In this document: positions 2,392-33,825 of the stretch, piece after piece
Position numbering within the stretch: position 1 is the stretch's first letter
Layout of the letters: every line of letters starts with the position of its first letter
Assembly: GCA_028710615.1 (NCBI GenBank)
Contig: JAQTTT010000003.1
Span: 1 to 34,315 of the forward strand
Reading direction: 5' to 3'
Source of the DNA: Candidatus Nanoarchaeia archaeon
Lineage (GTDB): Archaea > Nanobdellota > Nanobdellia > Tiddalikarchaeales > Tiddalikarchaeaceae
DNA: 34,315 nt
The notes under the pieces: model-generated
Database searches by the model: none
What the model was told of the DNA's origin: nothing
What the model saw: only the letters and a program-made list of their open reading frames with translations
Translations under genes and position numbers: made by a program

Positions 2392-3212
2392 TGGTTTTAG
2401 AAAGCTTAATAACTCCGCGTGAAGTCAGAAAAAACAGCTGGTACTTATTTTTTCTTGGAATCATTTTTTCAAGCTCAGGAATAATTCTTTCAATCTTTGT
2501 ATTTCCGGGAAACGCGGGAATATTCTCTGTTTTTTTGACAACTCTTGCGGCTGCGCCGTTATTCATATTGCTTCTTCAGGAAGAGGAATTATTGTCAATA
2601 AGATTGATTGAAAAAAAACAGCCGATATTCAAGAACAACATTGACATAATAAGCGCTTTCTTTTTTTTGTTTTTAGGATTCACGATTTCATGCATTCTAT
2701 GGTTTTGCTTTTTGCCTGAAGGAACATTTAATTTAGCATTTAATGAGCAATTGAATGAGATATCTTCAATTCAGTCAATAGCAACAGGAAACATTGCGTC
2801 TCCAGGATTATTTGAAACAGTATTAAAAAATAATTTAAGAGTCTTGTTTTTCTGCATGCTTTTTTCATTGATTTACGGGGCAGGAGCCGTATTAATACTT
2901 GCGTGGAATGCAAGCGTTTTAGGCACAGCTGTTGGATTGTTTATTCGGGAAAAAATGGCTTCTGATTCAAGCATGGTTGCAGTGTTTTTGTCAAACCTCC
3001 CTTTCGGGCTTGGGCAATACATGTTTCACGGAGCATTTGAATTAACTGCTTATTTTATAGGAAGCCTTATTGGAGGGATTTTAAGCGCGTCAATTGTGAG
3101 AAAAAGCTTCACTAACAGGAACTTTTTTAAATTATTTAAGAACATAATATTTTTATTGCTTATAAGCATAGCATTAATATTCATAGCAGCAATAATTGAA
3201 GTGAATCTGTGA
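2391..3212 (+). CDS. Stage II sporulation protein M (SpoIIM)-like multi-pass membrane protein
   Basis: Multiple hydrophobic helices; NNLRVLFFCMLFSLIYGAGAVLILAWNASVLGTAVGLF...HGAFELTAYFIGSLIGG resembles the SpoIIM/DUF95 family. Start overlaps the upstream stop (TAATG). Confidence 0.75.
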   Translation: MVLESLITPREVRKNSWYLFFLGIIFSSSGIILSIFVFPGNAGIFSVFLTTLAAAPLFILLLQEEELLSIRLIEKKQPIFKNNIDIISAFFFLFLGFTISCILWFCFLPEGTFNLAFNEQLNEISSIQSIATGNIASPGLFETVLKNNLRVLFFCMLFSLIYGAGAVLILAWNASVLGTAVGLFIREKMASDSSMVAVFLSNLPFGLGQYMFHGAFELTAYFIGSLIGGILSASIVRKSFTNRNFFKLFKNIIFLLLISIALIFIAAIIEVNL

Positions 3213-5872
3213 TGGCAAAGAAAAAAAAAGCTAAAAACGCAAAAAAGGCAAAAGATGATGAAGATGATGATTTTGAATTGGATTTTTCAGGAGTCAAAAA
3301 CTGGCTTGTGAAAAAAAAGAAATACACTTATCCTTTGTCAATAATATTATTAATATCAATAGTCTGCTTTTTTGCTTGGAATGTAAGAACCCAGTCAGCC
3401 GCAAATCTGCAGGGCAAGTTTTTGCTTGGGCTTGACCCCTATTTTTTCTTAAGATACGCCAAAGACATTGTCAGCAATGAATACACGGAAACAGACATAA
3501 TGAGGTTTTATCCAACAGGATTTCAAAGGAATTTGGAATTGCCTTCGCCCTCTTTTGGAACAGCGATTTATTATAAAGCCCTTAATTTTTTGGGATTTAA
3601 TCTGTCAGTGACTGAAACTGGAATACTTTTTCCCGCAATTTCAACAATTTTTGCAATGATATTCTTTTTTTTGTTTGTTAAAGAGGTTTTTAAAAGCAAT
3701 AAAATTGCCTTTGTTTCATCAATGCTTTTAAGCGTAGTGCCGGGATTTTTATTCAGGACCAGCGCAGGATTCCTTGACAAAGAAAGCATAGCAATGGTTT
3801 TCTTTTTTGGATTGATGTTTTTCATGCAAAGGGCTTTTAATCAAAAAATCATTCTTAAAAAAGCGTTTTATGGTTTGCTTTCAGGGATTTTCTTAATGGG
3901 TTCAGCACTATCTTGGGGAGGGGCAAACATACTTTTAATTCCAATGGGAATAAGCTTTGTTTTTTTGATATTTTTCAAGATATCAAAAAGAAGCGATTCA
4001 ATCATTTATCTTATTTTAACTTTATTTTCATTCAGCGTTTCACTAATCACTCCCAGGTATGGCGTGGGGATTGATGTGCTGGAGCATTACATGTTTTTAT
4101 TGATTCCAATATCCCTTTTTTTAAACATCTATTGCCATGAAATTTATCCAAAAATATCAAAATATTTAATCAAATACAAGCCCCAAAATTTGCCTGAGCA
4201 TTTTTATATGCTTGCTGTTGCAATCATCATTATTTTTATAGTTAGCCCAATTTTTCCCGGAATTGATTTTTATCAAAGAATATTTGCATTTATTCAGGAG
4301 CAATTGAATCCTGTTGGCGATGCGTTTTCAAGAAGCGTCAGCGAAAATCAGCCCCCATATTTCATAAGCCTGCAAAGCAATGATTGGTGGAGCGCTTTGA
4401 ATTTCATATTTTTTACAATGATAATAGGCTCCTTTTTTTTATTCTATGAAATGCTTAAAAAATTTCCAAAGCAAAGGCTTGTTTTTTCAATAATTTATGC
4501 ATTAATAATCATGGCGTTTATTTTTTCAAGATTCAGCGATTCGCAGGAATATGCAACATTCAACAGCTTTTTTGAGATGAGAATTCTTGGAATAGAACTG
4601 CATTACATAATACTTTCCTTGTTTTTGATATATTCAGCGTATTTTATCTATAAAAACAGAGAAAGGATGGATGATTTCAGCGAGATAAAATTTGAATATT
4701 TATTCTTGTTCATATTGTTTTTTTTATCAATTGTTGTTTCAAGAGGCTCAATAAGGCTGATTTTCATGGTTTGCCCCTCTGCTGCAATTCTTTCAGGATA
4801 TGCTTTTGAAAAATTAAGCGTGCAAGCGTCAAAAATAATAAAATCATCAAATATTTCATATTTTTTGATTGGAGCAATATTTTTGCTAATATTTTTCCAT
4901 AATTACAATATTTCTTTTAACTCAAACAAGAATTTTTACTCAAGCTTCACAACTGAATGGGATGAGGCAATGCAATGGGTAAGGGAAAACACTGCGAATG
5001 ATAGTGTTTTTACGCATTGGTGGGATTACGGCTACTGGGTGCAGACAATGGGAGAGAGAGCCACAACGCTTGATGGAGGAAACTATTATGTTCAAAGAAA
5101 CCATTTGACTGGAAGGTATTTATTTGCATCAAGGATTTATCAGAATGGAGCATATAATATGACTGAGCCTGCAACGCATTTAATCCATGATTTTGCTGAA
5201 CCGGATTATTTCTTAATCATTGATGATGATGTCTTGAAATTTGTCCAGATGGGAAGGATTGGAAAAAGGCCTGTTCATTATTCTGTTGGAGGATTTTCTG
5301 AAGAGATTGAAAATCCGGGAATTGACAATGCAACGCTTTTTCCAAAGTTATTGTTTTTTGATTCAATTTATGGAGCTTTTCCTGTTCAGGAAGATTTTGT
5401 ATACAATAACTTTATTTTTAAAAAAGAATCGACTTTTGTGTTGGCAATAATTTATCCGTTTAATCCCGAAGAATATGCTTTTGGCAACCCATATGCTTAT
5501 ATTTATAATCAATACATACCTGACCAAAGAATTGTAATTCCCTTTAATGGGCAATGCTTTTTTGGTGAAGGATGCTTTACCCACAGGAGTGATGGAGTCA
5601 GGGAATATCCTCTTTTATTGCAGGATGGGGTTGTATTAATAACTGAGAATGCGTCGGATAATTTATTCACGTATTTATATTTGTTGAATATGAGCGTTCC
5701 GGGATTTGAAATAGCGTATGACAATGAAAGGGCTTTGACTGTTCAGGGAATGGCAAGCCAATCTTTGACAGACATTAAAATTTACAAGATTAACTATGAT
5801 GAATTGGGAAAATGGGCATTGGATGAAGGCTTGCCTGAATATTGGTCTTATCCGGGTGATGCAATTTGGTAA
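3209..5872 (+). CDS. aglB: Archaeal oligosaccharyltransferase AglB / STT3 (dolichyl-phosphooligosaccharide-protein glycotransferase)
   Basis: Multi-TM N-terminus, catalytic WWDYG motif (nt 5018-5032) and downstream DxxKxxxM (DVLKFVQM, nt 5228-5251), the DK-type motif of STT3/AglB. In-frame GTG at 3209 is followed by ATG at 3212. Confidence 0.96.
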   Translation: MMAKKKKAKNAKKAKDDEDDDFELDFSGVKNWLVKKKKYTYPLSIILLISIVCFFAWNVRTQSAANLQGKFLLGLDPYFFLRYAKDIVSNEYTETDIMRFYPTGFQRNLELPSPSFGTAIYYKALNFLGFNLSVTETGILFPAISTIFAMIFFFLFVKEVFKSNKIAFVSSMLLSVVPGFLFRTSAGFLDKESIAMVFFFGLMFFMQRAFNQKIILKKAFYGLLSGIFLMGSALSWGGANILLIPMGISFVFLIFFKISKRSDSIIYLILTLFSFSVSLITPRYGVGIDVLEHYMFLLIPISLFLNIYCHEIYPKISKYLIKYKPQNLPEHFYMLAVAIIIIFIVSPIFPGIDFYQRIFAFIQEQLNPVGDAFSRSVSENQPPYFISLQSNDWWSALNFIFFTMIIGSFFLFYEMLKKFPKQRLVFSIIYALIIMAFIFSRFSDSQEYATFNSFFEMRILGIELHYIILSLFLIYSAYFIYKNRERMDDFSEIKFEYLFLFILFFLSIVVSRGSIRLIFMVCPSAAILSGYAFEKLSVQASKIIKSSNISYFLIGAIFLLIFFHNYNISFNSNKNFYSSFTTEWDEAMQWVRENTANDSVFTHWWDYGYWVQTMGERATTLDGGNYYVQRNHLTGRYLFASRIYQNGAYNMTEPATHLIHDFAEPDYFLIIDDDVLKFVQMGRIGKRPVHYSVGGFSEEIENPGIDNATLFPKLLFFDSIYGAFPVQEDFVYNNFIFKKESTFVLAIIYPFNPEEYAFGNPYAYIYNQYIPDQRIVIPFNGQCFFGEGCFTHRSDGVREYPLLLQDGVVLITENASDNLFTYLYLLNMSVPGFEIAYDNERALTVQGMASQSLTDIKIYKINYDELGKWALDEGLPEYWSYPGDAIW

Positions 5873-6882
5873 TCCTGCTTATTTCATTATTTTTAAGTTT
5901 TTTTATCACGTATTTTGCAACCCCCCAGTTTATCAAATTTTTCAAAGAAATAAAAACAGAAAGCACGGATGTTCATAAAAAAAAGAATCCATTGATTCCA
6001 ATGGGAGGGGGAATATGCGCATTATCAGGATTATTGTCCGGAGTTTTTGTATTCATTGCATTGAATACTTTTTTTCTTAAAAGCCAGCAGGATTATACTG
6101 AATTATTTAGCGGAATTATTTCAATAATGATAATAACTTTTTCAGGATTCTTTGATGATTTGGCAAGCAAGCAGGTAAAATATGAGGGATTCACCTATAA
6201 AAAAGGTTTAAAGCAGTGGCAAAAACCGCTATTAACGCTTCCAGCAGTAATACCTCTAATGGTTATAAATGCGGGCTCAACAGTTATTAATCTCCCTGTT
6301 TTTGGATTTATTGATTTAGGCCTGCTTTATCCCTTGCTAATAATACCTGTTGGAATAATTGGCTGCGCAAACATGGTTAATCTATTGGGGGGATTTAATG
6401 GTTTAGAGGCAAGCATGGGAGCTGTTTATACTTTAAGCCTGGGATTATTTGCATTAAGCATTGGGGAAAATTTGGTTGCTTTAATGCTATTGTGCTCAAC
6501 AGCAGCTTTAATCGCATTTCTAATATTTAATTATTTTCCTGCTAAGATTTTTCCAGGAGACAGCTTGACTTATTTTTTGGGGGTTTTGGTTGCTGTTTGC
6601 GCAATAATGGCTGACATGGAAAAATTTGCATTAATAACAATGTCTTTATTCATTATTGAAGGATTGCTGAAAGCAGCGTCTTTTATTAAGCTTAAAAAAT
6701 TTGCTTCAAGCCTGGGAATGCTTGATGATTCTACTGGGATAATAAAATCAAAATATAATAAGATTTATTCCTTGACTCATTTTGCAATGGGCAAAAAAGG
6801 GGCAACAGAGCAGCAGATAGTCATAAGGTTGCTAATAATGCAGGTATTTGTTGCAATAATTCCATGGCTTCTTTATGCATAA
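5866..6882 (+). CDS. aglH: UDP-GlcNAc:dolichyl-phosphate GlcNAc-1-P transferase-like (GT4 / MraY-ALG7 superfamily), AglH-type
   Basis: Polytopic protein with KKNPLIPMGGG, FSGFFDDLASK, NMVNLLGGFNGLEA and FPGDSLTYFLG, in the order seen in the ALG7/AglH family. TTG start overlaps the aglB end. Confidence 0.85.
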   Translation: MVILLISLFLSFFITYFATPQFIKFFKEIKTESTDVHKKKNPLIPMGGGICALSGLLSGVFVFIALNTFFLKSQQDYTELFSGIISIMIITFSGFFDDLASKQVKYEGFTYKKGLKQWQKPLLTLPAVIPLMVINAGSTVINLPVFGFIDLGLLYPLLIIPVGIIGCANMVNLLGGFNGLEASMGAVYTLSLGLFALSIGENLVALMLLCSTAALIAFLIFNYFPAKIFPGDSLTYFLGVLVAVCAIMADMEKFALITMSLFIIEGLLKAASFIKLKKFASSLGMLDDSTGIIKSKYNKIYSLTHFAMGKKGATEQQIVIRLLIMQVFVAIIPWLLYA

Positions 6883-7883: not shown

Positions 7884-8573
7884 ATGAAGCCAGCTGAATT
7901 GTCTCTTGTAATCCCTCTTTTTAATGAGGAAGAAAATGTTGTTTCTCTTTTGAATGTTTTGACCTCTGCTTTGAAAAAAGAAGGCATTAGTTATGAAGTG
8001 TTGGCAGTTGATAATGGCTCCATGGATAACACTGGGGATTTAATTGATAAATTTTCTAAAAAATGCAGGAATGTCATAAAAATAAAGGTAAAAGAGAATA
8101 AAGGGTATGGCTTTGGAGTTTTGTCCGGATTAAAAAAAGCCAAAGGAAAATACATTGGATATCTTTGGGGGGATAATCAGATTTCTCCAAAAACAACGAT
8201 TCAGGTTTTTAAAAAATTAAAAAAAGAGAATCTGGATCTATGCAAAATAACAAGGATTGAAAGGACAGAGTCATTGTTAAGGATAATCCAATCCATGATA
8301 TATAATTTACTGGTTAAATTATTGTTTGGTGTTGATTCAAAGGACATGAATGGCTGCCCTAAAATATTCAAAAAAGAGGCGTATGAGAAACTGAATCCTG
8401 AATCAAAAGACTGGTTTTTGGATGCTGAAATAATGATAAAATTGAAAAAAAATAATTTAAAATTCGGAGAAATATCAGTTGTTTCAAAAGACAGGGAAGG
8501 TGGAAAATCAAGCGTCAGCTTATTAACGGGGTTTGAGTTCTTAAAGAATATATTTAAATATAGGTTTATTTAA
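7884..8573 (+). CDS. Family 2 glycosyltransferase (dolichol-phosphate sugar synthase-like)
   Basis: LSLVIPLFNEEENVVSLLNVL...VLAVDNGSMDNTGDLID...NKGYGFGVLSGLKKAKGKYIGYLWGDNQ. Confidence 0.88.
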   Translation: MKPAELSLVIPLFNEEENVVSLLNVLTSALKKEGISYEVLAVDNGSMDNTGDLIDKFSKKCRNVIKIKVKENKGYGFGVLSGLKKAKGKYIGYLWGDNQISPKTTIQVFKKLKKENLDLCKITRIERTESLLRIIQSMIYNLLVKLLFGVDSKDMNGCPKIFKKEAYEKLNPESKDWFLDAEIMIKLKKNNLKFGEISVVSKDREGGKSSVSLLTGFEFLKNIFKYRFI

Positions 8574-8582
8574 TTAAATAAT

Positions 8583-9368
8583 ATGGATAATGTTAAAGTA
8601 GTTATTTTTGCCGGAGGAGCGGGAACCAGGCTAAGGGAAGAAACTGAGTATCGGCCTAAACCAATGGTAACTATTGGCGGAATGCCAATATTATTGCACA
8701 TTATGAAAATTTATTCTCATTATGGTTTTAATGATTTTGTCATTGCATTGGGGTATAAGGGGGATATGATAAAAAAATATTTTTTGGATTATCTTGAATT
8801 GAATAATGATATTGAAGTTAATTTAAAAACAAAAGAAGTTAGGTTTTTGACGGATTTAAAAGAAAATTTGAAGGTGACTTTGGTTGATACGGGCTTGGAT
8901 ACCATGACTGGTGGAAGGCTGAAAAAGCTTCAAAAATATGTTGGGGACAGCACGTTCATGGTTACTTATGGGGATGGGGTTGCGAATATTAATCTGAGAA
9001 AATTATATGATTATCATAAAACTCATGGAAAAATTGCAACAATTACAGGGGTTAGGCCTTCTTCAAGGTTTGGAGAATTAAACATTGAAAAAAACATTGT
9101 CATGGATTTCAGGGAAAAGCCCCAGATTTCAGGAAGCTATATTAACGGAGGCTTCTTTGTTTTTGAGCCCGAATTTTTCAATTATTTAAATGATGATGAG
9201 TCATTGATACTTGAAAGGGAGCCTTTGGAAAAAGTGGCAGAAGATAAAAATTTAATGATATTCAAGCATGACGGATTTTGGAAATGCATGGACACTTATA
9301 AGGATTTTTTGGATTTAAACAGAATAATGTCAGAATCTGCGCCATGGATAAAGGATTTGGAGGATTAA
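8583..9368 (+). CDS. rfbF: Glucose-1-phosphate cytidylyltransferase
   Basis: VVIFAGGAGTRLREETEYRPKPMVTIGGMPILLHIMKIYSHYGFNDFVIALGYKGDMIKKYF and GGFFVFEPEFFNYL are signature RfbF regions. Confidence 0.93.
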   Translation: MDNVKVVIFAGGAGTRLREETEYRPKPMVTIGGMPILLHIMKIYSHYGFNDFVIALGYKGDMIKKYFLDYLELNNDIEVNLKTKEVRFLTDLKENLKVTLVDTGLDTMTGGRLKKLQKYVGDSTFMVTYGDGVANINLRKLYDYHKTHGKIATITGVRPSSRFGELNIEKNIVMDFREKPQISGSYINGGFFVFEPEFFNYLNDDESLILEREPLEKVAEDKNLMIFKHDGFWKCMDTYKDFLDLNRIMSESAPWIKDLED

Positions 9369-9372
9369 ATCC

Positions 9373-10446
9373 ATGGATGATTTAAAGGAGTTTTATAATA
9401 ATAAAACAGTTTTAATTACTGGGCACACAGGATTTAAAGGCTCTTGGATGACTTTATGGCTGGTTGAATTAGGGGCAAAGGTTATTGGCTACTCCATTGA
9501 TTCTTCATCTGAAAAAGGCTTGTTTAATCTGTCCGGGTTAAAAGACAAAATTATTGATATCAGGGGGGATATAAGGGATTTAAATAAATTAAAAGAAGTT
9601 TTTGCCAATTATAATCCTGAAATCGTTTTTCATTTGGCAGCTCAATCCCTTGTGAGAAAATCTTATGATGAGCCGATTCATACATTTGAAACAAACATTA
9701 TTGGCACTGCAAACATGCTTGAAGCAATAAAGCACTGCAAAAATGTTAAATCTGCAGTTTTAATAACTTCAGACAAGTGCTATAAAAATAAAAACCATGT
9801 TTGGGGATACAGGGAAAATGATGAATTGGGGGGCGATGACCCTTATAGCGCAAGCAAAGCATGCTCAGAAATGATTATATCTTGCTGCAAAGATTCTTTT
9901 TTTAAAGATTCAAAAACAAACATTGTGTCAGTGAGGGCTGGAAACGTTATTGGCGGAGGGGATTGGGCAGAGGACAGGATAATCCCGGATTGCGTCAGAT
10001 TTTTAGAAAAAGGCGAAAAAATAATTGTAAGAAACCCTGATTCCACTCGGCCTTGGCAGCACGTTCTTGAGCCACTGCAAGGGTATCTGCTTCTTGCGCA
10101 TTCTTTATACAATGACTCCTCATTTTCAGGAGCATGGAATTTTGGACCAAGCAAAAACAATATAATTACAGTAAAAGAATTGGTTGACAGATTTTTGAAT
10201 TGCTGGGGAACAGGCTCTTGGGCCCATAATGGCACAGAACATGAGAAAAAGCATGAAATGAAGCTGTTAAGCCTTGATTCAAGCAAAGCTCATTTTATGC
10301 TGGGATGGAAGCCAATATTAACCTTTGATGAGACAATTGATTTCATTGTTGATTGGTATAAGAATTATAAAAAAGAAGATGCCTATGCTCTTGCTTTAAG
10401 CCAGATCAAAAAATTCAATGAGTTAAAAGAGCAAAGAATAAAATGA
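9373..10446 (+). CDS. rfbG: CDP-glucose 4,6-dehydratase
   Basis: NKTVLITGHTGFKGSWMTLWLVELGAKVIGYS, HLAAQSLVRKSY..P..TF.TN..GT, TSDKCYKNKNHVWGYRE.D.LGG.DPYSASKA and RAGNVIGGGDWA.DRIIPD are diagnostic of RfbG. Confidence 0.95.
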   Translation: MDDLKEFYNNKTVLITGHTGFKGSWMTLWLVELGAKVIGYSIDSSSEKGLFNLSGLKDKIIDIRGDIRDLNKLKEVFANYNPEIVFHLAAQSLVRKSYDEPIHTFETNIIGTANMLEAIKHCKNVKSAVLITSDKCYKNKNHVWGYRENDELGGDDPYSASKACSEMIISCCKDSFFKDSKTNIVSVRAGNVIGGGDWAEDRIIPDCVRFLEKGEKIIVRNPDSTRPWQHVLEPLQGYLLLAHSLYNDSSFSGAWNFGPSKNNIITVKELVDRFLNCWGTGSWAHNGTEHEKKHEMKLLSLDSSKAHFMLGWKPILTFDETIDFIVDWYKNYKKEDAYALALSQIKKFNELKEQRIK

Positions 10447-11336
10447 AAAAAATATTGATTTGCGGAATTGGAGGGCAATTAGGGTTATCATTGAAGAATA
10501 TTTTTTCAAAAGACAATAAATACCAAATTCATGGAATTGATTTAAATCCAGATGGTTCATCAAACATGCATTCTTGCGATATAGCCAATAAAAAAGATTT
10601 GTCGAATATTTTTAAAAAAATAAGCCCTGATATTGTGATAAATGCGGCTGCATTGGTTAATGCTGAAATTTGCGAAGAAAAAAAGGATTTGACATACAGC
10701 ATCAATTATTTGGGTAATAAAAACATTCTTGAGCTTTCAAAAAAATATTCAAGCGATTTTGTTTTCATATCATCTTATTATGTTTTTGATGGAACAAAAA
10801 AAGAATATTATGAAACCAGCACTCCAACGCCAATAAATTATTATGGAATAATGAAATTATTGGCAGAGCAGGATTCATTAAGCTATGAAAAAACATTGGT
10901 AATACGGCCTGGAAAAATATTCAGCCTTGGATATGATTTGCGCAATTTTATTGCAAGAACGCAGCAATCCCTTGCAAGAAATGAAAAAATAAAGGCAATA
11001 AATGACCAATTTAACAACCCAATTCATGCGGATTTCTTGTCAGATTCAATAAAGCAATTGATAGAAAAAGGAGAAAAAGGCATTTATAATGTTGCAGGAA
11101 AAGATTATGTAAGCAATTTTGAATTTGCAAAGCTATTTGCAAAACATTTTAATTTTAATGAATCTTTGATTGATTCCATAAAAACAGATGAAACAAATCA
11201 AATTGCCCAAAGGCCGAAAAATGTTGAATTAAAGCTTGATAAGCTGGAAAAAGCAGGCATTAAAGCGCATTCGCTTGAAAAAATGTTTGAACACATGGAA
11301 TCAATTTTTAGCAAAAACCAGCTCTTTAAGGTATGA
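10443..11336 (+). CDS. SDR-family NDP-4-keto-sugar reductase (RmlD-like), probable reductase in the CDP-sugar operon
   Basis: Rossmann KKILICGIGGQLGLSL, INAAALVNAEICEE, FISSYYVFDGTKKEYYETSTPTPINYYGIMK and VIRPGKIF. Overlaps the rfbG stop by 4 nt. Confidence 0.8.
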   Translation: MKKILICGIGGQLGLSLKNIFSKDNKYQIHGIDLNPDGSSNMHSCDIANKKDLSNIFKKISPDIVINAAALVNAEICEEKKDLTYSINYLGNKNILELSKKYSSDFVFISSYYVFDGTKKEYYETSTPTPINYYGIMKLLAEQDSLSYEKTLVIRPGKIFSLGYDLRNFIARTQQSLARNEKIKAINDQFNNPIHADFLSDSIKQLIEKGEKGIYNVAGKDYVSNFEFAKLFAKHFNFNESLIDSIKTDETNQIAQRPKNVELKLDKLEKAGIKAHSLEKMFEHMESIFSKNQLFKV

Positions 11337-12725
11337 TTTTGCCATGCTTAAAAAATATTTCACTTCATCAAAGGATTTTATTTTCTTTATTTGATTCCAA
11401 ACATATTTTGGAGATTTATAATAATTTTTTAAAACACTGCTTTGCAATTTTATCATTTCATCAGAAGTCATGTAATTCAATTTTTCATATCTTTTCAGGT
11501 TTCCAAACAAGCTGAATTGAGACCAGTCAGGATTTTTTGGCAATAATTTGCTTTTAATCAAAATGTCATAAATTTCTGTTCCAGGAAAAGGGCAAAGAAT
11601 GCTAAACGCAAGAAAATCAGGCATTAATTCATGCATTAATTTTATGGATTTTTCAACATCTTCAATTTTTTCATCAGGATGAGAGCCAATCATAAAAGTG
11701 CATTCAACAAAGCGAATTCCCGCTTTTTTTGCATTTTTCACTGCATTCTTCACATCTTTAATCCTGATATTCTTTTTTATTTTTTTGAGTATTTTTGGGC
11801 TTCCGCTTTCAACGCCAAAAGATATTTTTTTGCATCCTGATTCCGCCATCATTTTCAATAATTTTAAATTAACAGTATTTACCCTGGAGTTGCAATTCCA
11901 AGACAATTTTTTTTCTTTGAAAAATTCGCATAATTTTATCACCAAAGGCCTGTTTATCGTAAAAGTGTCATCTTCTATTGAAATATGATTTATATTAAAT
12001 TTTTCAATGTTTTCCTCGATTTCTTTTTTTATATTTTCAAAACTTCTGAACCGCAACGTGCCTTTGTAATTAACATGCCCAGCGCAAAATATGCATTTAT
12101 TTGGGCAACCCCTGCTGGTTAATATTTCAATTATTTTATTATTTTTCCTGGAAAAACCTCGTGTAACATGGTGCTTTGAATATAATTCCATGTCAATTAA
12201 ATCCCTGTTTGGAAAAGGTATTGAATCCAAATCCTTAATCAATTCCCTTTTTTTATTTATTATAATGCCATTTTTTTCCCTAAAAGCAATGCCAGGGATA
12301 TTATGCATTTTTTTCCCTTTTTTTATAAAATCAACAAGCTCAACAACAGTTTCCTCCCCTTCCCCATGAACCAAAAAATCCAAATTTTTTATTTCTTTCA
12401 TGGTTTCAAAAGGCAAAGCAGAAGCATGGCAGCCCCCAAGAACAGTTATTATTTTTTTATTTTTATCTTTTATAATGTCAATTGTTTCCCCTGCATTATA
12501 AATTGATGAAGTCATAGAAGTCAAACCCGCAATTTGAGGCTTGAATTTTTTAATAATTTTTAGCAATTCTTTTTTAGGCATGACATTCAAATCAATCATC
12601 TTAACTTCATTGTTCGCCTTAATCAGTGAAGAAGCAATGTATCCAAGATTTATTGGATATTGCAATGACAGAAATTCCTTGTTAACAGCTTTTGTTGCTT
12701 CTGGCTGTATTAGCAAAATTTTCAT
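11301..12725 (-). CDS. B12-binding-domain radical SAM protein
   Basis: N-terminal cobalamin-binding-like region (LLIQP....SLQYPINLGYIASSL) followed by TSRGCPNKCIFCAG (CxxxCxxC) and FGVESGSPKILKKIKK. Confidence 0.9.
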   Translation of the reverse strand: MKILLIQPEATKAVNKEFLSLQYPINLGYIASSLIKANNEVKMIDLNVMPKKELLKIIKKFKPQIAGLTSMTSSIYNAGETIDIIKDKNKKIITVLGGCHASALPFETMKEIKNLDFLVHGEGEETVVELVDFIKKGKKMHNIPGIAFREKNGIIINKKRELIKDLDSIPFPNRDLIDMELYSKHHVTRGFSRKNNKIIEILTSRGCPNKCIFCAGHVNYKGTLRFRSFENIKKEIEENIEKFNINHISIEDDTFTINRPLVIKLCEFFKEKKLSWNCNSRVNTVNLKLLKMMAESGCKKISFGVESGSPKILKKIKKNIRIKDVKNAVKNAKKAGIRFVECTFMIGSHPDEKIEDVEKSIKLMHELMPDFLAFSILCPFPGTEIYDILIKSKLLPKNPDWSQFSLFGNLKRYEKLNYMTSDEMIKLQSSVLKNYYKSPKYVWNQIKKIKSFDEVKYFLSMAKSYLKELVFAKN

Positions 12726-12740
12726 AATTAAGCTAATAAA

Positions 12741-12754
12741 GTAAAATTTTTAAC
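12741..12754. promoter_or_regulatory. Shared divergent TATA-like element between radical SAM gene (-) and rfbH (+)
   Basis: GTAAAATTTTTAAC, a near-palindrome in a 54-bp divergent intergenic gap, about 22 nt upstream of 12725- and about 33 nt upstream of 12780+. Confidence 0.5.
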
Positions 12755-12779
12755 TCTTTTTATTGTATATTATTCAGTA

Positions 12780-14072
12780 ATGAACAACAAAAACATAATT
12801 GATTTTATTGAAAAAAACGCTTTTTTTCAAAGCAATGAATTTATTCCGGGAAAAACGCAAATAAAGATTTCAGGCAAAATTTATGACCAAAATGAATTGC
12901 TTTTAGGGATACAATCAATTATTAATGGCTGGTGGACTGAAGGGGAATTCAATAAAATGTTTATATCCAAATTTTCTTCTTTTTTGGGAATCAAGCACGT
13001 TTTGCCCGTTAATTCAGGTTCTTCAGCAAATCTTCTTGCTTTTGCAGCATTAACATCTCCCCTGCTAAAAGAAAAAAGGATAAAAAAAGGGGATGAAGTC
13101 ATAACTGTTGCGTCATGCTTTCCCACAACAGTGAATCCAATATTATTATATGGATGCATTCCAGTATTTGTGGATGTCAATTTAGAGACTTATAATGCTG
13201 ATTGCGATTTAATTGAAAATGCGATAACGCAAAAAACAAAAGCAATATTCTTAGCCCACACATTGGGAAATCCGATTAATCTGGACAAAATTCAAAAAAT
13301 TTGCAAAAAATATGATTTATGGCTGATTGAAGATTGCTGCGATGCTTTAGGCTCTGAATATGGAGGCAAAAAAGTTGGAACTTTTGGAGACATTGGCACA
13401 TTCAGCTTTTATCCTGCGCACCACATTACTGCTGGAGAAGGAGGAGCAGCAGCTACAAATAATGATTTGTTAAATAAGATAATGAAATCAATCAGGGATT
13501 GGGGAAGGGATTGTTTTTGCGAAACAGGGCATGACAATACCTGCCAAAGCAGATTTTGCCAAAAGCACGGAGAATTGCCGCAAGGATATGACCATAAATA
13601 TGTTTATTCCAATATGGGTTTTAATTTAAAATGGACGGATTTTCAGGCAAGCATTGCATGCGCACAAATGGATAAACTGGATTTTTTTATCAAAAAAAGA
13701 AAAGAAAATTTTAATTTACTGCATAAAGGATTAAAAAAATTTGAAAAGCATTTAATTCTTCCAAAGGAAGAGAATAATTCAAATCCCTCATGGTTTGGCT
13801 TCCTGCTCACTGTAAAACCTCCAATCAATAGGAATGATTTAATAGAGCATTTGGAAAATAGCAAAATTTCAACAAGGCTGTTATTTGCAGGCAATGTGAC
13901 AAAGCAGCCGTATTTCAAGGATTTAAAATATAGAATATGCGGAAATTTAAAAAACACGGACATAATCATGAATTCAAGCTTTTGGATAGGGGTATATCCA
14001 GGAATAACACCTGAAATGATAGATTATATTTTGATGAAATTTGAGGATTTTTTTAAAAAATCAGAGAAATAA
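12780..14072 (+). CDS. rfbH: CDP-4-dehydro-6-deoxyglucose 3-dehydratase (E1), DegT/DnrJ/EryC1 fold
   Basis: PVNSGSSANLLAFAAL, EDCCDALGSEYGGKKVGTFGDIGTFSFYPAHHITAGEGGA (His where aminotransferases carry Lys) and RDWGRDCFCETGHDNTCQSRFCQKHGELPQGYDHKYVYSNMGFNLK, the RfbH/DdhC Cys-rich segment. Confidence 0.95.
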   Translation: MNNKNIIDFIEKNAFFQSNEFIPGKTQIKISGKIYDQNELLLGIQSIINGWWTEGEFNKMFISKFSSFLGIKHVLPVNSGSSANLLAFAALTSPLLKEKRIKKGDEVITVASCFPTTVNPILLYGCIPVFVDVNLETYNADCDLIENAITQKTKAIFLAHTLGNPINLDKIQKICKKYDLWLIEDCCDALGSEYGGKKVGTFGDIGTFSFYPAHHITAGEGGAAATNNDLLNKIMKSIRDWGRDCFCETGHDNTCQSRFCQKHGELPQGYDHKYVYSNMGFNLKWTDFQASIACAQMDKLDFFIKKRKENFNLLHKGLKKFEKHLILPKEENNSNPSWFGFLLTVKPPINRNDLIEHLENSKISTRLLFAGNVTKQPYFKDLKYRICGNLKNTDIIMNSSFWIGVYPGITPEMIDYILMKFEDFFKKSEK

Positions 14073-22637: not shown

Positions 22638-23324
22638 TTATTTTATCATCTCATTAAATTTTTTATAGTTGTCGGGAGTTCCTATATCAATATATTTTTC
22701 ATTATATTTCACTGCTTTTAAGCCTTTTTTTATTATTATTGGAAATATCTCTTTTTCCAGGCTGACTTTTTTGTTTTCAGGTATTAAATCCAAGACATTT
22801 TTTTTAAAAATATAAACTCCCGCGTTCATGTATTTGTCGTTTTTTGAAGGATTTTTGGGCCTTTCTTTTAATTCAACAACATCATTGTCTTTGTTAAGTT
22901 TTACAATTGTTACTTCAGAGGGATTGATTGTTTTTGTTATCACCATTAAATGTTTTTTATTTTTATTGAATTCTTTTATTATTTTTTCATAATCCAATTC
23001 GTGGTAGGTGTCTCCATTTAATAGGATAAAATCTTCCCTGATTAAATTTTGAGCATTTTTTAGCGCACCAGCAGTTCCCAATGGCTCTTTTTCAATTGAA
23101 TATTCTATTTTAATTCCATATTCTTTTCCGTCCTCGAAATATTCCATTATTTTTTCATGCTTATGTCCAACGCAAATTATTATTCTGTTAAAATGATTTT
23201 TTAATTGGGAAATGAGATAGTGCAAAAACGGTTTTTTATTAAATTCAGCCATTGACTTTGGCAGATTATTAATTATTCCGCTTAATCGGGTTCCCAGCCC
23301 TCCGGCCAAAATCACTGCTTCCAT
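22638..23324 (-). CDS. hddC: Sugar-phosphate nucleotidyltransferase, HddC-like (D-glycero-D-manno-heptose-1-P guanylyltransferase type)
   Basis: EAVILAGGLGTRLSGIINNLPKSMAEFNKKPFLHYLISQL...EKEPLGTAGALKNAQNLI..DFILLNGDTYHELDY. Adjacent and divergent to an HddA-like kinase. Confidence 0.78.
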   Translation of the reverse strand: MEAVILAGGLGTRLSGIINNLPKSMAEFNKKPFLHYLISQLKNHFNRIIICVGHKHEKIMEYFEDGKEYGIKIEYSIEKEPLGTAGALKNAQNLIREDFILLNGDTYHELDYEKIIKEFNKNKKHLMVITKTINPSEVTIVKLNKDNDVVELKERPKNPSKNDKYMNAGVYIFKKNVLDLIPENKKVSLEKEIFPIIIKKGLKAVKYNEKYIDIGTPDNYKKFNEMIK

Positions 23325-23339
23325 TTTTAATTAATATTA

Positions 23340-23362
23340 GTTAAATATTTAAATATCTTAAC
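23340..23362. promoter_or_regulatory. Palindromic bidirectional TATA-type promoter element between hddC-like (-) and hddA-like (+)
   Basis: GTTAA-ATATTTAAATAT-C-TTAAC: perfect 12-bp palindrome ATATTTAAATAT inside a 23-nt inverted repeat with one bulged nt, centred about 26 nt upstream of both start codons (23324- and 23376+). Confidence 0.65.
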
Positions 23363-23375
23363 TTTTATTATATCC

Positions 23376-24380
23376 ATGATAATTTGCAGGGCTCCGGTAA
23401 GAATTGATTTTGGGGGCGGAGGCACAGATATTGAGCCATATTCTTCTGAGCATACAGGATTTGTTTTAAACTCTGCCATTAATAGGTTTGTTAAAACAAT
23501 TGTGGCAAAAAGAGACGATAAAATAATAAAAATAATATCCAGCGATTTTAATTCAATAATAGAAAAGGAATCAATAAATGATTTGACTTATGATTCAACA
23601 TTGGATTTAATAAAAGGATTGATTAAAAGGATGAACCCTTTAAAAGGAATTGATTTATTCACAAGAAGCGATATTCCAACAAAATCCGGATTGGGGGCGA
23701 GCGCATCGCTTAGCACCAGCGTAATAGGCGCTTTAAATGAGTTGGAAAAAAAGAATTTAACAGAATGTGAAATAGCGGAATTGGGCTATGGCGTGGAGCA
23801 TGATGATTTAAAAAATGAAGGCGGAAGGCAAGACCAATATGTAAGCGTTTTTGGAGGATTTAATCAAATAGAATTTTTAGGGAATTCGAATGTAAAAGTC
23901 AGCAAGCTCACTTTAAAATCATCATTTTTAGAGCATTTAAACAAGAATTTGATTTTAATTTATACTGGAATTCCCCATATTAGCGGAAATATAATTTCAA
24001 AACAAGTTGATTCTTACAATAAAAAGGAGCAAATAGCGGTTGAATCATTGCATAAGGTAAAAGAAATAGCAATGAATATGAAAGATTCTTTGCTAAAGGA
24101 AGATTATGAATCTTTTGCCAAAGGATTGGAAAAAGATTGGGAATATAAGACAAAATTGAATCCCTTAATAACAACTGACAGGATGAGGGCGCTTAATAAT
24201 ATTGCATTAAAAAATGGGGCTATTGGCGGAAGAGTTTGCGGGGCAGGAGGGGGAGGATGCATGATTTGGCTTTGCAATGAAGGAAAAAAAGACGGGGTTG
24301 TTTCTGCATTAAAAAAAGAAAATGCCCATGAAATAAAATATGAATTTAACAGCAAGGGATACGAAGTCGTGGATTTTTAA
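23376..24380 (+). CDS. hddA: GHMP-family sugar kinase, HddA-like (D-glycero-D-manno-heptose-7-P kinase type)
   Basis: IICRAPVRIDFGGGGTDIEPYSSEHTGFVLNSAINRF, SGLGASASLSTSVIGAL, GGRQDQYVSVFGGFNQIEF and GGRVCGAGGGGCMIWL, the HddA-type GHMP kinase motif set. Confidence 0.85.
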   Translation: MIICRAPVRIDFGGGGTDIEPYSSEHTGFVLNSAINRFVKTIVAKRDDKIIKIISSDFNSIIEKESINDLTYDSTLDLIKGLIKRMNPLKGIDLFTRSDIPTKSGLGASASLSTSVIGALNELEKKNLTECEIAELGYGVEHDDLKNEGGRQDQYVSVFGGFNQIEFLGNSNVKVSKLTLKSSFLEHLNKNLILIYTGIPHISGNIISKQVDSYNKKEQIAVESLHKVKEIAMNMKDSLLKEDYESFAKGLEKDWEYKTKLNPLITTDRMRALNNIALKNGAIGGRVCGAGGGGCMIWLCNEGKKDGVVSALKKENAHEIKYEFNSKGYEVVDF

Positions 24381-24428
24381 TTGCCAAAGAAAGATTTTAA
24401 AATGGATAAAGTTTAATTTTTTTATGTT

Positions 24429-25544
24429 TTGAAAAATGTTAGAAAATTGCTTAAAATGCTAAGCACTAAAAATTTTAATTACCTGATTAATATTATTAAG
24501 CACAGAATTGCTGGAATAAATTATAAAAAAATTTCTGAAACAGGCATTGTTAATCCAATATATGTTCAAATAATGCCAACTTTAAAATGCAATCTTAAGT
24601 GCAAAATGTGCCTTCAAAAAGAAATTAAATGCAATAAAAACGAGCTTGATTATGGTAAAATGGTTGTTGTTTTAAAAAACCTTGAAAAAATGGGAATAAA
24701 AAGGGTTGATTTTATTGGGGGAGAAATATTTTTGATGAAAGACATATATAAAATCCTTGATTTGTTTAAAAAAAGGGGATTTATTCTGTCTTTGGGCACA
24801 AATGGAACCTTGTTAAAAGAAAAAGACATGATTTTGCTGTCAAAATATAATAACATCATAAGCATAGGATTTTCTTTGGATGGCCTTGAAAAAACCCATG
24901 ATAACATCCGAGGAGTTAAAGGTTCTTTTAAAAAAACAGTAAATTCAATTGTTGAAATTAAAAAAAGGGGCATTGATGTTGGCATTACCTGTGTTTTGCA
25001 GAAAGACAATTTTGATGAAATACCCAAATTAATGCTTTTTCTTAAAAAAAGAGGCATTAATAATCTTACCATTTTATTTGAAATTTATTCAACGTCAAAT
25101 GATGTGATGATTACAAAAAACATAATTAAAAAAATGATTGGGCATTCTCCTCAAATATTTTTAACCCCTAAAAATGAAATGGATTACTCTCCTGATGAAG
25201 TTGAAAGGGCTGTTAAAAAAATAAAAAAATACGCAAAAAAAATCAAGTTTAATGCAATTTTTAAAAATGAGGATTATATTCCAGAAATTTTCAATAACAC
25301 GGTTAGAAAAAAACATAAAGTTACTTGTGACATTCTTGCAACAGGAAACACTCAAATTGATTGGAATGGCGATTTAAATGTTTGTCCTTTTATAGGCTTA
25401 AATGTTTTGGGGAATCTTTCTAAAAAAGAGATAAAAAAAGACATTTTTAACAGCGATATTTATAAAAAAATAAGGAAAAAGATGCTTAATTGCAATTTAT
25501 TGCCCATATGCGATCATTGTTGCCAATTGAATGTGATTAAATGA
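24429..25544 (+). CDS. Radical SAM/SPASM domain protein (TTG start)
   Basis: CNLKCKMC (CxxxCxxC), GGEIFL, SLDGLEKTHDNIRG, and a C-terminal Cys set CDILATGNTQIDWNGDLNVCPF...CNLLPICDHCC (SPASM). Confidence 0.88.
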   Translation: MKNVRKLLKMLSTKNFNYLINIIKHRIAGINYKKISETGIVNPIYVQIMPTLKCNLKCKMCLQKEIKCNKNELDYGKMVVVLKNLEKMGIKRVDFIGGEIFLMKDIYKILDLFKKRGFILSLGTNGTLLKEKDMILLSKYNNIISIGFSLDGLEKTHDNIRGVKGSFKKTVNSIVEIKKRGIDVGITCVLQKDNFDEIPKLMLFLKKRGINNLTILFEIYSTSNDVMITKNIIKKMIGHSPQIFLTPKNEMDYSPDEVERAVKKIKKYAKKIKFNAIFKNEDYIPEIFNNTVRKKHKVTCDILATGNTQIDWNGDLNVCPFIGLNVLGNLSKKEIKKDIFNSDIYKKIRKKMLNCNLLPICDHCCQLNVIK

Positions 25545-25582
25545 TTTTTAATTTTATAAGACAACAATCAGAAAAATTTAAT

Positions 25583-25598
25583 AGAAAAAGTTATAAAC
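25583..25598 (+). promoter_or_regulatory. Archaeal BRE/TATA-like promoter of the B12-radical SAM gene
   Basis: AGAAAAAGTTATAAAC about 27 nt upstream of ATG 25621. Confidence 0.5.
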
Positions 25599-25620
25599 AT
25601 TTGTAAATTTCTTTTTTATA

Positions 25621-27129
25621 ATGAATACTTCACTGAAAGAAATTTTAAACTTTAAAAAAATAGCGCAGGCAAAGGCTAAAAAAAACATATTATTAATAAA
25701 TCCCAGAAGAGACAATTGTGATGTTTATATTCCCCACATGGGTTTAGCCATGCTTGCGTCAATATTAAAAAAAAGGGGCCATGAGGTTGTGGTTATAGAT
25801 TATGTTTTAACCCCCAATGCTCCCCAAGTTTCTTATTTTTTGAATAAATACAGGCCGGATGTTGTGGGCATAAGCATGATTACAGGAACTTTTTATGAGT
25901 CAATTGATATAATGAAAAAGATAAAATTGCATTATCCAAAACTGCCGGTTATTGTTGGCGGTCCCCATGCTTCGCTTTATCCAGAGCATCTTAAAAAAAT
26001 AAAAGGAATAGATTACGTTGTTGTGGGAGAAGCTGAATATATTATAATTGATTTGGTTGAAAAAGCAAAAAAAAATATTAGTGCAGAGATTATTTATCCA
26101 AAAACCATAGTGGATCCAAAATTGCTTCCTTATCCGGATTATACCGCATTTCATAATTGGAAAGAAATAAATCATTATTCAATAATGACTTCAAGGGGGT
26201 GCCCTTTTAGATGCAGTTTTTGTGCGGTTTGCCATGTTGGTCAAAAGAAATGGAGGCCCAGAGACCCTGAGGATTGCATCAAAGAATTGGAATATGCAAA
26301 AAAGATTTTAAATAAAAAATTCACTGTTTTTGTTCAGGATGATAATCCGTTGGTTATTCCGGAAAGATTTTATGATTTTTTAAGACTGTTTATAAAAAGA
26401 ATAAATTTGCCAATACATGTTATAAATGTCAGGGCAGATAGCATCAATGAAAAATACTTGAATTTAATAAAAAAAGCCGGAATTGATACTGTTGGCATAG
26501 CTGTGGAATCTGCGAATCCAGAAGTTTTTAAAATGATAAATAAAGGCGAAAGCTTAGAAACAATAGAAAAAGCGGTTGGATTAATCAAAAAGCATAAAAT
26601 GTCTTTGAATTTTTGTTTTATTATTGGATTGCCGGGAGACAATTTGGAAAGAGTGAAAGATTCTATTAATTTTGTTAATAAGCACAAGCCCGAAATAGTT
26701 TATTTGAACATGGTCATTCCTTTTAAAAAAACAGATATAAGAAAATGGTTTGAAATGAATGGAACCATTTTTGATGAAATTGGAAAAAGCACTGGAATTT
26801 CCAGAAAAAGCAAAATTAGATGCGATGTTCCTCCTGTTGAAACACCGGATTTTACGAGATGGCAGAGGGAGAAAGCGTATTACATGTTTTTATTCAGGAC
26901 CGTTCATGATGTATTAAAATTAAGGCATGTGGTGGAAATTTTTAAAATAGCAGCAGAGTATAAAGAAATCAATAATTTTTTATATTGGCTTCCCAGGGGA
27001 ATAATGAAATCAATTAAAAAAAAAATAATGCTGTTGTTTAGATTTTTTTATTTTTTAAAAAAGTGGGGGCTTAAGCAAACTTTGAATCGCACAGTCATTT
27101 TTTTTAAGAATAGAACTAAGAAAAATTGA
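25621..27129 (+). CDS. B12-binding-domain radical SAM protein
   Basis: ILLINPRRDN....PHMGLAMLASILKKRGHEVVVIDY, VGGPHASLYPE, SRGCPFRCSFCAVCHVG and VGIAVESANPEVFKMINKGE. Confidence 0.92.
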   Translation: MNTSLKEILNFKKIAQAKAKKNILLINPRRDNCDVYIPHMGLAMLASILKKRGHEVVVIDYVLTPNAPQVSYFLNKYRPDVVGISMITGTFYESIDIMKKIKLHYPKLPVIVGGPHASLYPEHLKKIKGIDYVVVGEAEYIIIDLVEKAKKNISAEIIYPKTIVDPKLLPYPDYTAFHNWKEINHYSIMTSRGCPFRCSFCAVCHVGQKKWRPRDPEDCIKELEYAKKILNKKFTVFVQDDNPLVIPERFYDFLRLFIKRINLPIHVINVRADSINEKYLNLIKKAGIDTVGIAVESANPEVFKMINKGESLETIEKAVGLIKKHKMSLNFCFIIGLPGDNLERVKDSINFVNKHKPEIVYLNMVIPFKKTDIRKWFEMNGTIFDEIGKSTGISRKSKIRCDVPPVETPDFTRWQREKAYYMFLFRTVHDVLKLRHVVEIFKIAAEYKEINNFLYWLPRGIMKSIKKKIMLLFRFFYFLKKWGLKQTLNRTVIFFKNRTKKN

Positions 27130-27205
27130 TTTTTTTTTTTAATTATTTTACATAAATGCAATTAAATTCAAAGAATTTAAAAAACGCAATAGTTAAATTA
27201 AAGCC

Positions 27206-28246: not shown

Positions 28247-28258
28247 AAAAATGAAAAA

Positions 28259-30878: not shown

Positions 30879-31712
30879 ATGGTAGTTAAAGTTTCAGTGG
30901 CAATGGGGGTCAGGAACAGGAAAAAAAACATAATAAAATGCATAAAATCTTTAATAAATCAAACGCTTTCAAAAAAATATTTTGAATTAGTGATAACTGA
31001 TTATGGCGGAACCGATGATTTGGAAAAAAGCATAAAACCTTTTTATTCTGAATTAAACATAAAATATATTTTTGTAAAAACAAGTCTTCCTTGGAATGAA
31101 GCAAGGGCAAAAAATATAAGCATAAAAAATTCTTCGCATAGCTTTATAATCTGCACCAATGCGGACATTATTTTTGAAAAAAATGTGCTAAAAAGAATGA
31201 TGGACATAGTGGATAATAATAAAAAAGAATACATATACCTTGTCAATAGATGGGATATTTTAGAAAATAAAAAGATTGTTTTAAGCTTAAAATCCCATAT
31301 TGGCGATTTTCAGGGATTTCATAAAAAAAATTGGCTTGGGGTCAGGGGCTATGATGAATCCATGACTGGTTGGGGTGAACTTGATGGGGATTTAAGGCTT
31401 AGATTTAAGAGAGTCTTGGATAAAGATGAGTTTTGGCTTGATGAAAACCATATTAAGATATTCCACACTTATCATGAACCAAAATTTAATATGCATGACC
31501 TTAGGTTGAATTGGTGGAAATCCAAGCTAAATCATTTTATAAAAGTCAACAATCCTTATTTCGGGGATAAAGAGAATATTTCAAAAACGCCTGTTATTAA
31601 AAATATTTATTTGTTTGCAAGGGTTTCCAATTTCATATACAATTTTTTTAACAGAATTTATTTGTTCATAAATAAAAGCATAAATAATCATTTAAAAAAA
31701 TTATACAAATAA
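30879..31712 (+). CDS. Family 2 glycosyltransferase with galactosyltransferase-like C-terminal region
   Basis: VSVAMGVRNRKKNIIKCIKSLINQTLSKKYFELVITDYGG...ICTNADIIFEKNVLKRM...YDESMTGWGELDGDLRLRFKR. Confidence 0.87.
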   Translation: MVVKVSVAMGVRNRKKNIIKCIKSLINQTLSKKYFELVITDYGGTDDLEKSIKPFYSELNIKYIFVKTSLPWNEARAKNISIKNSSHSFIICTNADIIFEKNVLKRMMDIVDNNKKEYIYLVNRWDILENKKIVLSLKSHIGDFQGFHKKNWLGVRGYDESMTGWGELDGDLRLRFKRVLDKDEFWLDENHIKIFHTYHEPKFNMHDLRLNWWKSKLNHFIKVNNPYFGDKENISKTPVIKNIYLFARVSNFIYNFFNRIYLFINKSINNHLKKLYK

Positions 31713-32768
31713 AAGTTTTAAATTTTCCTTGTTTTCATTCATCCATTCAATTATTTCTATTATTGTTTCTTTCAATTTTTTTTTGGGGCGCCAGCCGCTT
31801 ATTTTCTTTATTTTATTGGAGTCAGTGATGAACCATTTCACATCCGCTTGACGGGTTTTCGGCACCGATTTTATTTTAATTTTGTTTCCAGTCAATTCTT
31901 CGCAAACATTTGTCAGTTCTTTCAATGAAAAACTGTTTTCTTTGCCTCCGCCAACATTATAGATTAAATCTTTGAATTTGCTAAAATCATTTATTTGCAA
32001 ATCAATTAATTCGAATAAGTCGCTGATATTCAAAAAATCCCTGACTTGCTTTCCAGAACCCCCAAAACCAATATAGCTTAATTCCTGATTGAATAAATGC
32101 TTAGCAACCCACAAAGCCATTACGCCTTGGTCGATTTTTCCCATTTGCCAAGGTCCGGAAATAACTCCGCACCTGTTAATAATTGCTTTTAAGCCGTAGG
32201 AATCCGCGTATTCTCTTATTAACAGCTCTGAGCAAAGCTTTGTAGCGCCATATAAAGACCTCGCCTTGTCCAAAGAAAAATCTTCGCTTATGCCTTCATT
32301 TGATGCGCCCCTTATTTTTTGGTTTTCTTTTATCTCAAACCTCGTATTTGTTTCATTAAAATCCAAGGAATTGATGAAATCAATGGGATAAACCCTGCTG
32401 GTTGATAAGAATATTAAACTCGCATTTTTTTTCCTGCACTCTTCCAAGCAATTAATTGTTCCCATTAAATTGGTGTTAAGCAAATATGAGGGCGAAGAAT
32501 TTATTCCAGCCATTACAGAAGGTTCAGCAGAGCATTCAATCATTAAATCAAAATCAGGGATTTGCTCAAAATCCTCTTTATTTCTAATGTCTCCATGCAT
32601 AAACTCTATCCCTTTTTCCTTCAATCTTTTTAAATTAAGCTCTGAGCCCCTTCTTTTCAGATTATCAAAGCAAATTATTTCAGATTTTGGATATTTTTCT
32701 TTAAGCATTATTGCAAGATTAGAGCCGATAAAGCCAGCACCTCCGGTAATCAACACATTTTTATTCAT
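31701..32768 (-). CDS. Extended SDR, CDP-paratose 2-epimerase (CDP-tyvelose epimerase)-like
   Basis: [67 protein letters not shown]...[51 protein letters not shown] and [15 protein letters not shown]. Layout recalls RfbE/Tyv. Confidence 0.8.
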
Positions 32769-33825
32769 TTTTTTTCATCTCAAATTCAACTATTTCTTTA
32801 AGTATGTCATTAATTGAATATTTGTATTCCCAATCAGGATAATCTTTTTTGAATTTTCCAACATCTGAGATGTACCAGATATGATCGCCTTCTCTGGGCT
32901 TTTCCTCGTAATTGATTATTGCTTTTTTTCCGCTTAATTTTTCAATCAATTCAATTGCTTCAAGCATTGAAATATTTGAATGCCTTGAGCCGCCCATATT
33001 GTAAACTTCACCTTTTTTAGGATTATTTGCAAAATGATTAAAAGCGTTTATTAAATCATAAGAATGAATATTGTCCCTCACTTGCTTTCCCTTATGCCCG
33101 ATTATTGTGTAGGGCTTTTGATGAATTATGCATTTAACCAAGTATGATAAAAAGCCATGAAGCTTTGTTCCTGAATGGCAAGGTCCAGTCAAGCATCCTC
33201 CCCTGAATATTCCCGTGTATAATCCAAAGTATTTTCCATATTCTTGAACAAGTATGTCTGCCGCAACTTTGGATGCTCCGAATAGGCTGTGCTTTGAATT
33301 GTCTATGCTCATGCTTTCATCAATGCCGTGTTTTGAAAATTTATGGGAAGAATCGAGTTCAAAGCGTTTTTCCTTTTCCATTATTGGGAGGCTGTTTGGA
33401 GTGTCGCCGTAAACTTTGTTAGTTGATGTGAAAATAAAAACCCCTTTTGGAGAATGTTTTCTGAAACTCTCAAGCAAATTAAGGGTTCCATTAGCATTAA
33501 CTTCAAAATCAGTAAACGGCTCTTTTGCCGCCCAATCATGCGAAGGCTGGGCAGCGGCATGAATAATTATTTCAAAAGGCCCTTCTTTTTTGAATAATTC
33601 CTCGATTTTTATTTTGTCGCGTATATCTATTGAATAATGAACATAATTTTGCTTGCATTCTTTTTTTGTATTTTCATTGTTGCTTTGGGTGCTGGCTTCC
33701 TTGCCGAAATAATAAGCCCGCATATCATTGTCAATGCCTATTACCTTAAAATTTTTTTTTGAGTAAAATTTTACAGCTTCTGAACCTATTAGCCCTGCTG
33801 AACCAGTTATTAATATTTTAAACAT
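32761..33825 (-). CDS. Extended SDR, second CDP-paratose 2-epimerase-like paralog
   Basis: [108 protein letters not shown] and [16 protein letters not shown]. Confidence 0.82.

Follow-up and report, generated by a model that had tools for sequence, protein, structure and literature searches.

3,6-Dideoxyhexoses count as rare sugars, known chiefly from the O-antigens of Salmonella and Yersinia, and a survey of 303 archaeal genomes recorded most rare sugars as absent (PMC7725333). The Yersinia/Salmonella CDP-3,6-dideoxyhexose pathway uses RfbF, RfbG, RfbH, and RfbI, also known as Ep, Eod, E1, and E3. E1 and the spinosyn 3-dehydrase SpnQ are both marked by a histidine in place of lysine and by four cysteines for a [2Fe-2S] cluster, which ColD lacks, and SpnQ takes its electrons from ferredoxin/flavodoxin systems instead of E3 (PMC8987622). 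SpnQ acts on dTDP-4-keto-2,6-dideoxyglucose, whereas ColD belongs to the GDP-colitose pathway and releases its product by hydrolysis. Here we describe an rfbF-rfbG-rfbH cassette in a 34,315-nucleotide window (the whole stretch of DNA analyzed; contig JAQTTT010000003.1, assembly GCA_028710615.1) from an archaeon of the class Nanoarchaeia (DPANN). This archaeon probably makes 3,6-dideoxy sugars in a modified way, because no partner enzyme dedicated to supplying electrons is apparent in its genome. The first three enzymes are those of the Yersinia/Salmonella pathway, whereas the failure to find an E3 (RfbI) in the cassette or the genome, the RmlD-type reductase, and the archaeal N-glycosylation setting next to AglB set this cassette apart. 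Automatic annotations in public databases surely already name some of the cassette genes.

By sequence, residues, and modeled fold, RfbH is an E1-type enzyme with predicted 3-dehydrase activity (Table 1). Its best Protein Data Bank (PDB) match by phmmer is E1 (3bcx, 1.5e-156), and it resembles SpnQ in the [2Fe-2S] ligands, the histidine, and the expected pyridoxamine phosphate chemistry but differs from it in matching the E1/RfbH family and in adjoining CDP-glucose genes. The RfbH motifs quoted in an earlier sequence-only reading of this DNA are present exactly, including the histidine that replaces the pyridoxal phosphate-binding lysine. This residue, His214, aligns with His220 of E1, which is replaced by lysine in structure 3bb8 (H220K). 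RfbH does not fit a lysine-dependent DegT aminotransferase, since histidine stands where the catalytic lysine is expected. The four cysteines follow the spacing C-X57-C-X1-C-X7-C. An AlphaFold2 model of RfbH (mean predicted local distance difference test score, 86.2; low confidence in the cluster loop, residues 242-281) retrieved the E1 fold (3bcx) first in a Foldseek search (E 2e-56, template modeling score 0.88-0.90), and the next family followed at 2.9e-35. ColD shares this fold and the catalytic histidine, but its structural match to the window's RfbH is much weaker, and assignment to ColD was rejected because all four cysteines are present.

The route from CDP-glucose to CDP-4-keto-6-deoxyglucose and its 3-deoxy derivative, as proposed in the sequence-only reading, is well supported by the family models, residues, and fold. 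The reading frames of RfbF, RfbG, the short-chain dehydrogenase/reductase (SDR), and RfbH are all open where that reading had placed them, and the three Rfb proteins exceed the curated cut-offs of their family models, with best PDB matches that agree. RfbF barely clears its cut-off, and 1tzf is by far its best PDB match. RfbG contains both TSDKCY (TxDK; identical to 1wvg) and YSASK (YxxxK). The SDR, described earlier as 4-keto reductase-like, proved to be RmlD-like, and its nearest PDB entries are dTDP-4-dehydrorhamnose reductases. The cassette operon opens with a GT2 glycosyltransferase gene, and the GT2-rfbF, rfbF-rfbG, and rfbG-SDR gaps are 9, 4, and -4 bp, the SDR gene overlapping rfbG by 4 bp; rfbH starts 54 bp past a divergent gene for a B12-binding radical SAM enzyme. 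Homologs of the glycosyltransferase (≥100 bits) lie near rfbH in 6/22 archaeal loci versus 0/77 bacterial loci, which makes it the best candidate for transfer of the dideoxy sugar.

Table 1. Coordinates of the cassette genes, predicted functional residues, and associated genes in the window
Feature	Coordinates	Strand	Evidence
RfbH / E1, CDP-4-keto-6-deoxyglucose 3-dehydrase (predicted)	12780..14072	+	NF011936 668 bits vs cut-off 423
RfbH catalytic His214 (= E1 His220)	13419..13421	+	Invariant, 102/102 aligned homologs
RfbH Cys187, first [2Fe-2S] ligand (predicted)	13338..13340	+	102/102 aligned homologs
RfbH Cys245, Cys247, Cys255, remaining [2Fe-2S] ligands (predicted)	13512..13544	+	Kept in 98-100/102 homologs
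RfbF, glucose-1-phosphate cytidylyltransferase	8583..9368	+	TIGR02623 308.2 bits vs cut-off 300.25; PDB 1tzf 1.2e-71
RfbG, CDP-glucose 4,6-dehydratase	9373..10446	+	TIGR02622 490.8 bits vs cut-off 278.45; PDB 1wvg/1rkx ~1e-111
RmlD-type NAD(P)-dependent 4-ketoreductase (SDR)	10443..11336	+	PF04321 185.8 bits; YGIMK at residue 134 (YxxxK)
GT2 glycosyltransferase, first gene of cassette operon	7884..8573	+	PF00535 5.5e-21
B12-binding radical SAM enzyme	11301..12725	-	PF04055, PF02310; CPNKCIFC at residue 207
AglB/STT3 oligosaccharyltransferase	3209..5872	+	PF02516 8.5e-17, PF21436 6.1e-05
MraY/AGPT-type glycosyl-1-phosphate transferase (lipid carrier loading)	5866..6882	+	PF00953 1.8e-30
Tyvelose-2-epimerase-like SDR (SDR3), TSR for TNK	31701..32768	-	PDB 9rl0 1.3e-46, 1orr 1e-40
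Tyvelose-2-epimerase-like SDR (SDR4), TNK kept, catalytic Tyr to Phe	32761..33825	-	PDB 9rl0 1.8e-40, 1orr 9e-37

To the missing E3, on which the sequence-only reading was silent, family searches of the window's genome (726 kb, 55 contigs, 87.7% complete) gave the main clue; all genome-wide presence/absence checks were of this kind. No match to PF00175 (FNR) or PF00111 (plant-type ferredoxin) was found, so these searches revealed no E3, the NADH-dependent FAD/[2Fe-2S] reductase of the E1/E3 two-component system, elsewhere in the genome. A motif search located a candidate E3 near rfbH in only one of 77 bacterial loci. A missing neighbor alone thus means little, and it is the genome-wide absence that is informative. 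Among 20 rfbH-bearing Nanoarchaeia tested, PF00175 is absent from 10, one of them a single-contig genome, and the FNR proteins read from other rfbH-bearing Nanoarchaeia have no N-terminal plant-type ferredoxin motif. The window's genome does encode Fer4 ferredoxins, pyruvate:ferredoxin oxidoreductase (POR), and a [NiFe]-hydrogenase-like cluster, and POR_N occurs in 8 of the 10 FNR-less rfbH-bearing genomes. Because no E3 was found but POR and ferredoxins are present, a SpnQ-like reduction of RfbH by ferredoxin is likely. Without E3, RfbH might also serve as an aminotransferase or a ColD-like hydrolytic dehydratase, given that SpnQ transaminates when its reductase is absent; E1 and ColD, however, do not transaminate under those conditions (PMC8987622), and the retention in RfbH of the catalytic histidine and of cluster ligands that ColD lacks makes such a role highly improbable.

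We therefore consider it probable, with some reserve, that this archaeon has a working CDP-3,6-dideoxyhexose pathway that is free of E3, fed by ferredoxin, and directed to an AglB glycan. RfbF would form CDP-glucose, and RfbG would convert it to CDP-4-keto-6-deoxyglucose. RfbH, with pyridoxamine phosphate, His214, and the [2Fe-2S] cluster, would then remove the C3 hydroxyl, its two electrons coming, as for SpnQ, from a general ferredoxin pool reduced by POR or hydrogenase rather than from an NADH-dependent E3. The RmlD-type reductase would reduce C4 to give CDP-paratose or CDP-abequose, the GT2 enzyme may load a lipid carrier or the growing glycan with the sugar, and the adjacent AGPT/AglB machinery would place the glycan on protein. 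Several observations weigh against this account. For E1, unlike SpnQ, the donor described is E3, and the 87.7% completeness of the genome leaves room for an E3 or an epimerase in the gap, although the lack of an FNR domain recurs in half of the 20 rfbH-bearing Nanoarchaeia tested, the single-contig genome among them. Two genomes (G074 and G093) have rfbH but neither an FNR domain nor POR_N, leaving the electron source of E1 unexplained there. The SDR scores 177.9 bits against TIGR01214, below the rmlD equivalog cut-off of 224.05, and its substrate is only predicted. Finally, the literature searched, in which most subscription papers and supplements were unsearchable, held no report of an archaeal 3,6-dideoxyhexose glycan, RfbH, tyvelose, or yersiniose.

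The cassette lies in an AglB N-glycosylation island, where the oligosaccharyltransferase gene adjoins that of a lipid-carrier transferase. A genome from another genus of the same family (G248) has the window's gene order throughout the cassette (GT2, rfbF, rfbG, SDR, the B12 radical SAM gene on the opposite strand, and rfbH) at 55-80% identity, and the contig also carries aglB (52%), AGPT (60%), spoIIM, cdc6, and pcmt. In two further Nanoarchaeia, aglB and AGPT are located ≤10 kb from rfbH. The link to AglB advanced in the sequence-only reading is strengthened by this synteny in a second genus, and genomic linkage is the evidence by which placement of the dideoxyhexose on AglB-linked N-glycans is suggested. 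The sugar could instead be made but sent to another surface polymer or glycolipid, an alternative that we judge unlikely. In its favor, genes for numerous glycosyltransferases, two FkbM methyltransferases, and one YfhO-family membrane protein also lie in the window, and aglB is close to rfbH in only 2/22 other archaeal loci, a count limited by contig ends. Nevertheless, aglB, AGPT, and the cassette share one contig in two genera, and this analysis turned up no export or ligase machinery dedicated to a different polymer.

The conserved island also bears on the provenance of the cassette. Enzymes best known from bacterial O-antigens might point to bacterial contamination or a chimeric contig, but the same island, with cdc6, spoIIM, and aglB, occurs in the independent G248 genome, which excludes a chimera or binning error; RfbH groups with archaea, GC is even, and third-position GC is 0.26-0.34 over the cassette and its neighbors, with no sign of recent import. 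Contamination is thus refuted for practical purposes. The window's RfbH joined that of G248 in two trees (Shimodaira-Hasegawa-like approximate likelihood ratio test [SH-aLRT], 99), and in a thinned tree both fell within a ten-sequence archaeal clade of Nanoarchaeia and Prometheoarchaeum (SH-aLRT 96). The wider archaeal grouping was weaker in a larger tree, and a single clade for all archaeal RfbH was not rejected (approximately unbiased test, p 0.095). Bacteria are represented in these trees by the sequences nearest to the query, which leaves the deep rooting unsettled; among them there was no close bacterial donor, and a recent transfer from a bacterium received no support. The description of the pathway as bacterial-style, made in the sequence-only reading, accordingly holds for its chemistry and does not denote a recent bacterial import. 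Across the phylum, 371 genomes were sampled; 22 of these have RfbH, 19 of them above the family cut-off. Two of the 22 (L102 and L103) encode RfbH-family proteins that keep the histidine but not the [2Fe-2S] cysteines; these fall outside E1 and may either resemble ColD or form a new group.

The candidate products listed in the sequence-only reading could be narrowed. PF00908 (RmlC-type 5-epimerase, AscE) was not detected in the window's genome, at its 87.7% completeness, and ascarylose is disfavored on this ground, with the caveat of the incomplete genome. The end product is most likely a D-sugar, paratose or abequose, because no RmlC-type epimerase was found; the candidate C4 reductase is the RmlD-like SDR with its YxxxK motif. 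Tyvelose is unsupported. The CDP-tyvelose 2-epimerase (RfbE/TyvE) is the best PDB match of two further SDRs in the window, SDR3 and SDR4, yet both fail at residues essential in TaTyvE, where activity is lost when Asn125 or Lys126 of the TNK segment is changed to alanine (N125A, K126A) and Tyr164/Lys168 are catalytic (PMC13098431): SDR3 has no equivalents of Asn125/Lys126, and SDR4 has no catalytic Tyr. They are tentative members of the dideoxyhexose pathway. The two genes are in tandem and overlap, the catalytic motif is incomplete at a different point in each product, and the two proteins might function together. An SDR4 homolog (41%) is present on the rfbH contig of another genome (G179, L154).

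The B12-binding radical SAM gene between the SDR gene and rfbH had gone unmentioned in the sequence-only reading. Its product might act on the same sugar to give a C-methylated (branched) 3,6-dideoxyhexose, which we regard as doubtful. An ortholog with 68% identity occupies the same place in G248, so that the gene is inside the cassette in two genera, and both it and rfbH are missing from a congener of G248 (G035), which suggests that the cassette was gained or lost as a unit. The gene is, however, on the strand opposite to the cassette, other rfbH cassettes do not have it, and in G175, which has no rfbH, a 53% homolog is surrounded by leuS, eRF1, and helicase genes, weakening the case for a dedicated pathway enzyme. 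The full combination, in which DPANN archaea would pair an E3-free, ferredoxin-driven E1 with B12-radical SAM C-methylation to place branched 3,6-dideoxyhexoses on AglB-linked N-glycans, is improbable; glycans of this kind are not known from archaea.

Further genes accompany rfbH in other archaea. Acetolactate-synthase-type thiamine pyrophosphate enzymes adjoin rfbH in a member of the Nanoarchaeia (L108, 10548-12299, - strand) and in Nitrosarchaeum (L061, 11256-12977, + strand), which suggests yersiniose-like branched sugars in archaea. In two Nanoarchaeia families, a split transketolase-like pair lies between rfbFG and rfbH (L111, 7631-9372, +; L112, 3344-5052, +), assigned by Pfam for L111 and by matching layout for L112; it perhaps adds a two-carbon branch. 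L111 also encodes an HMGL-like domain fused to a CMP-sugar-type cytidylyltransferase (11297-13048, +) adjoining rfbH and near aglB. Elsewhere in the window, HddC-like, HddA-like, GDP-mannose 4,6-dehydratase, and GDP-4-keto-6-deoxyhexose-reductase-like genes (22638-29116) represent a possible GDP-6-deoxyheptose or GDP-rhamnose route within the same island, and a SPASM radical SAM gene precedes another B12-binding radical SAM gene, which is not the one in the cassette (24429-27129).

The cassette would provide a naturally occurring example of E1 working in the absence of E3. Since laboratory reconstitution of E1/E3 has proved difficult (PMC7851689), a ferredoxin-driven E1 could be useful. For the organisms themselves, the conservation of the cassette in Nanoarchaeia predicts 3,6-dideoxyhexoses at the archaeal cell surface, the site of contact between DPANN cells and their hosts.

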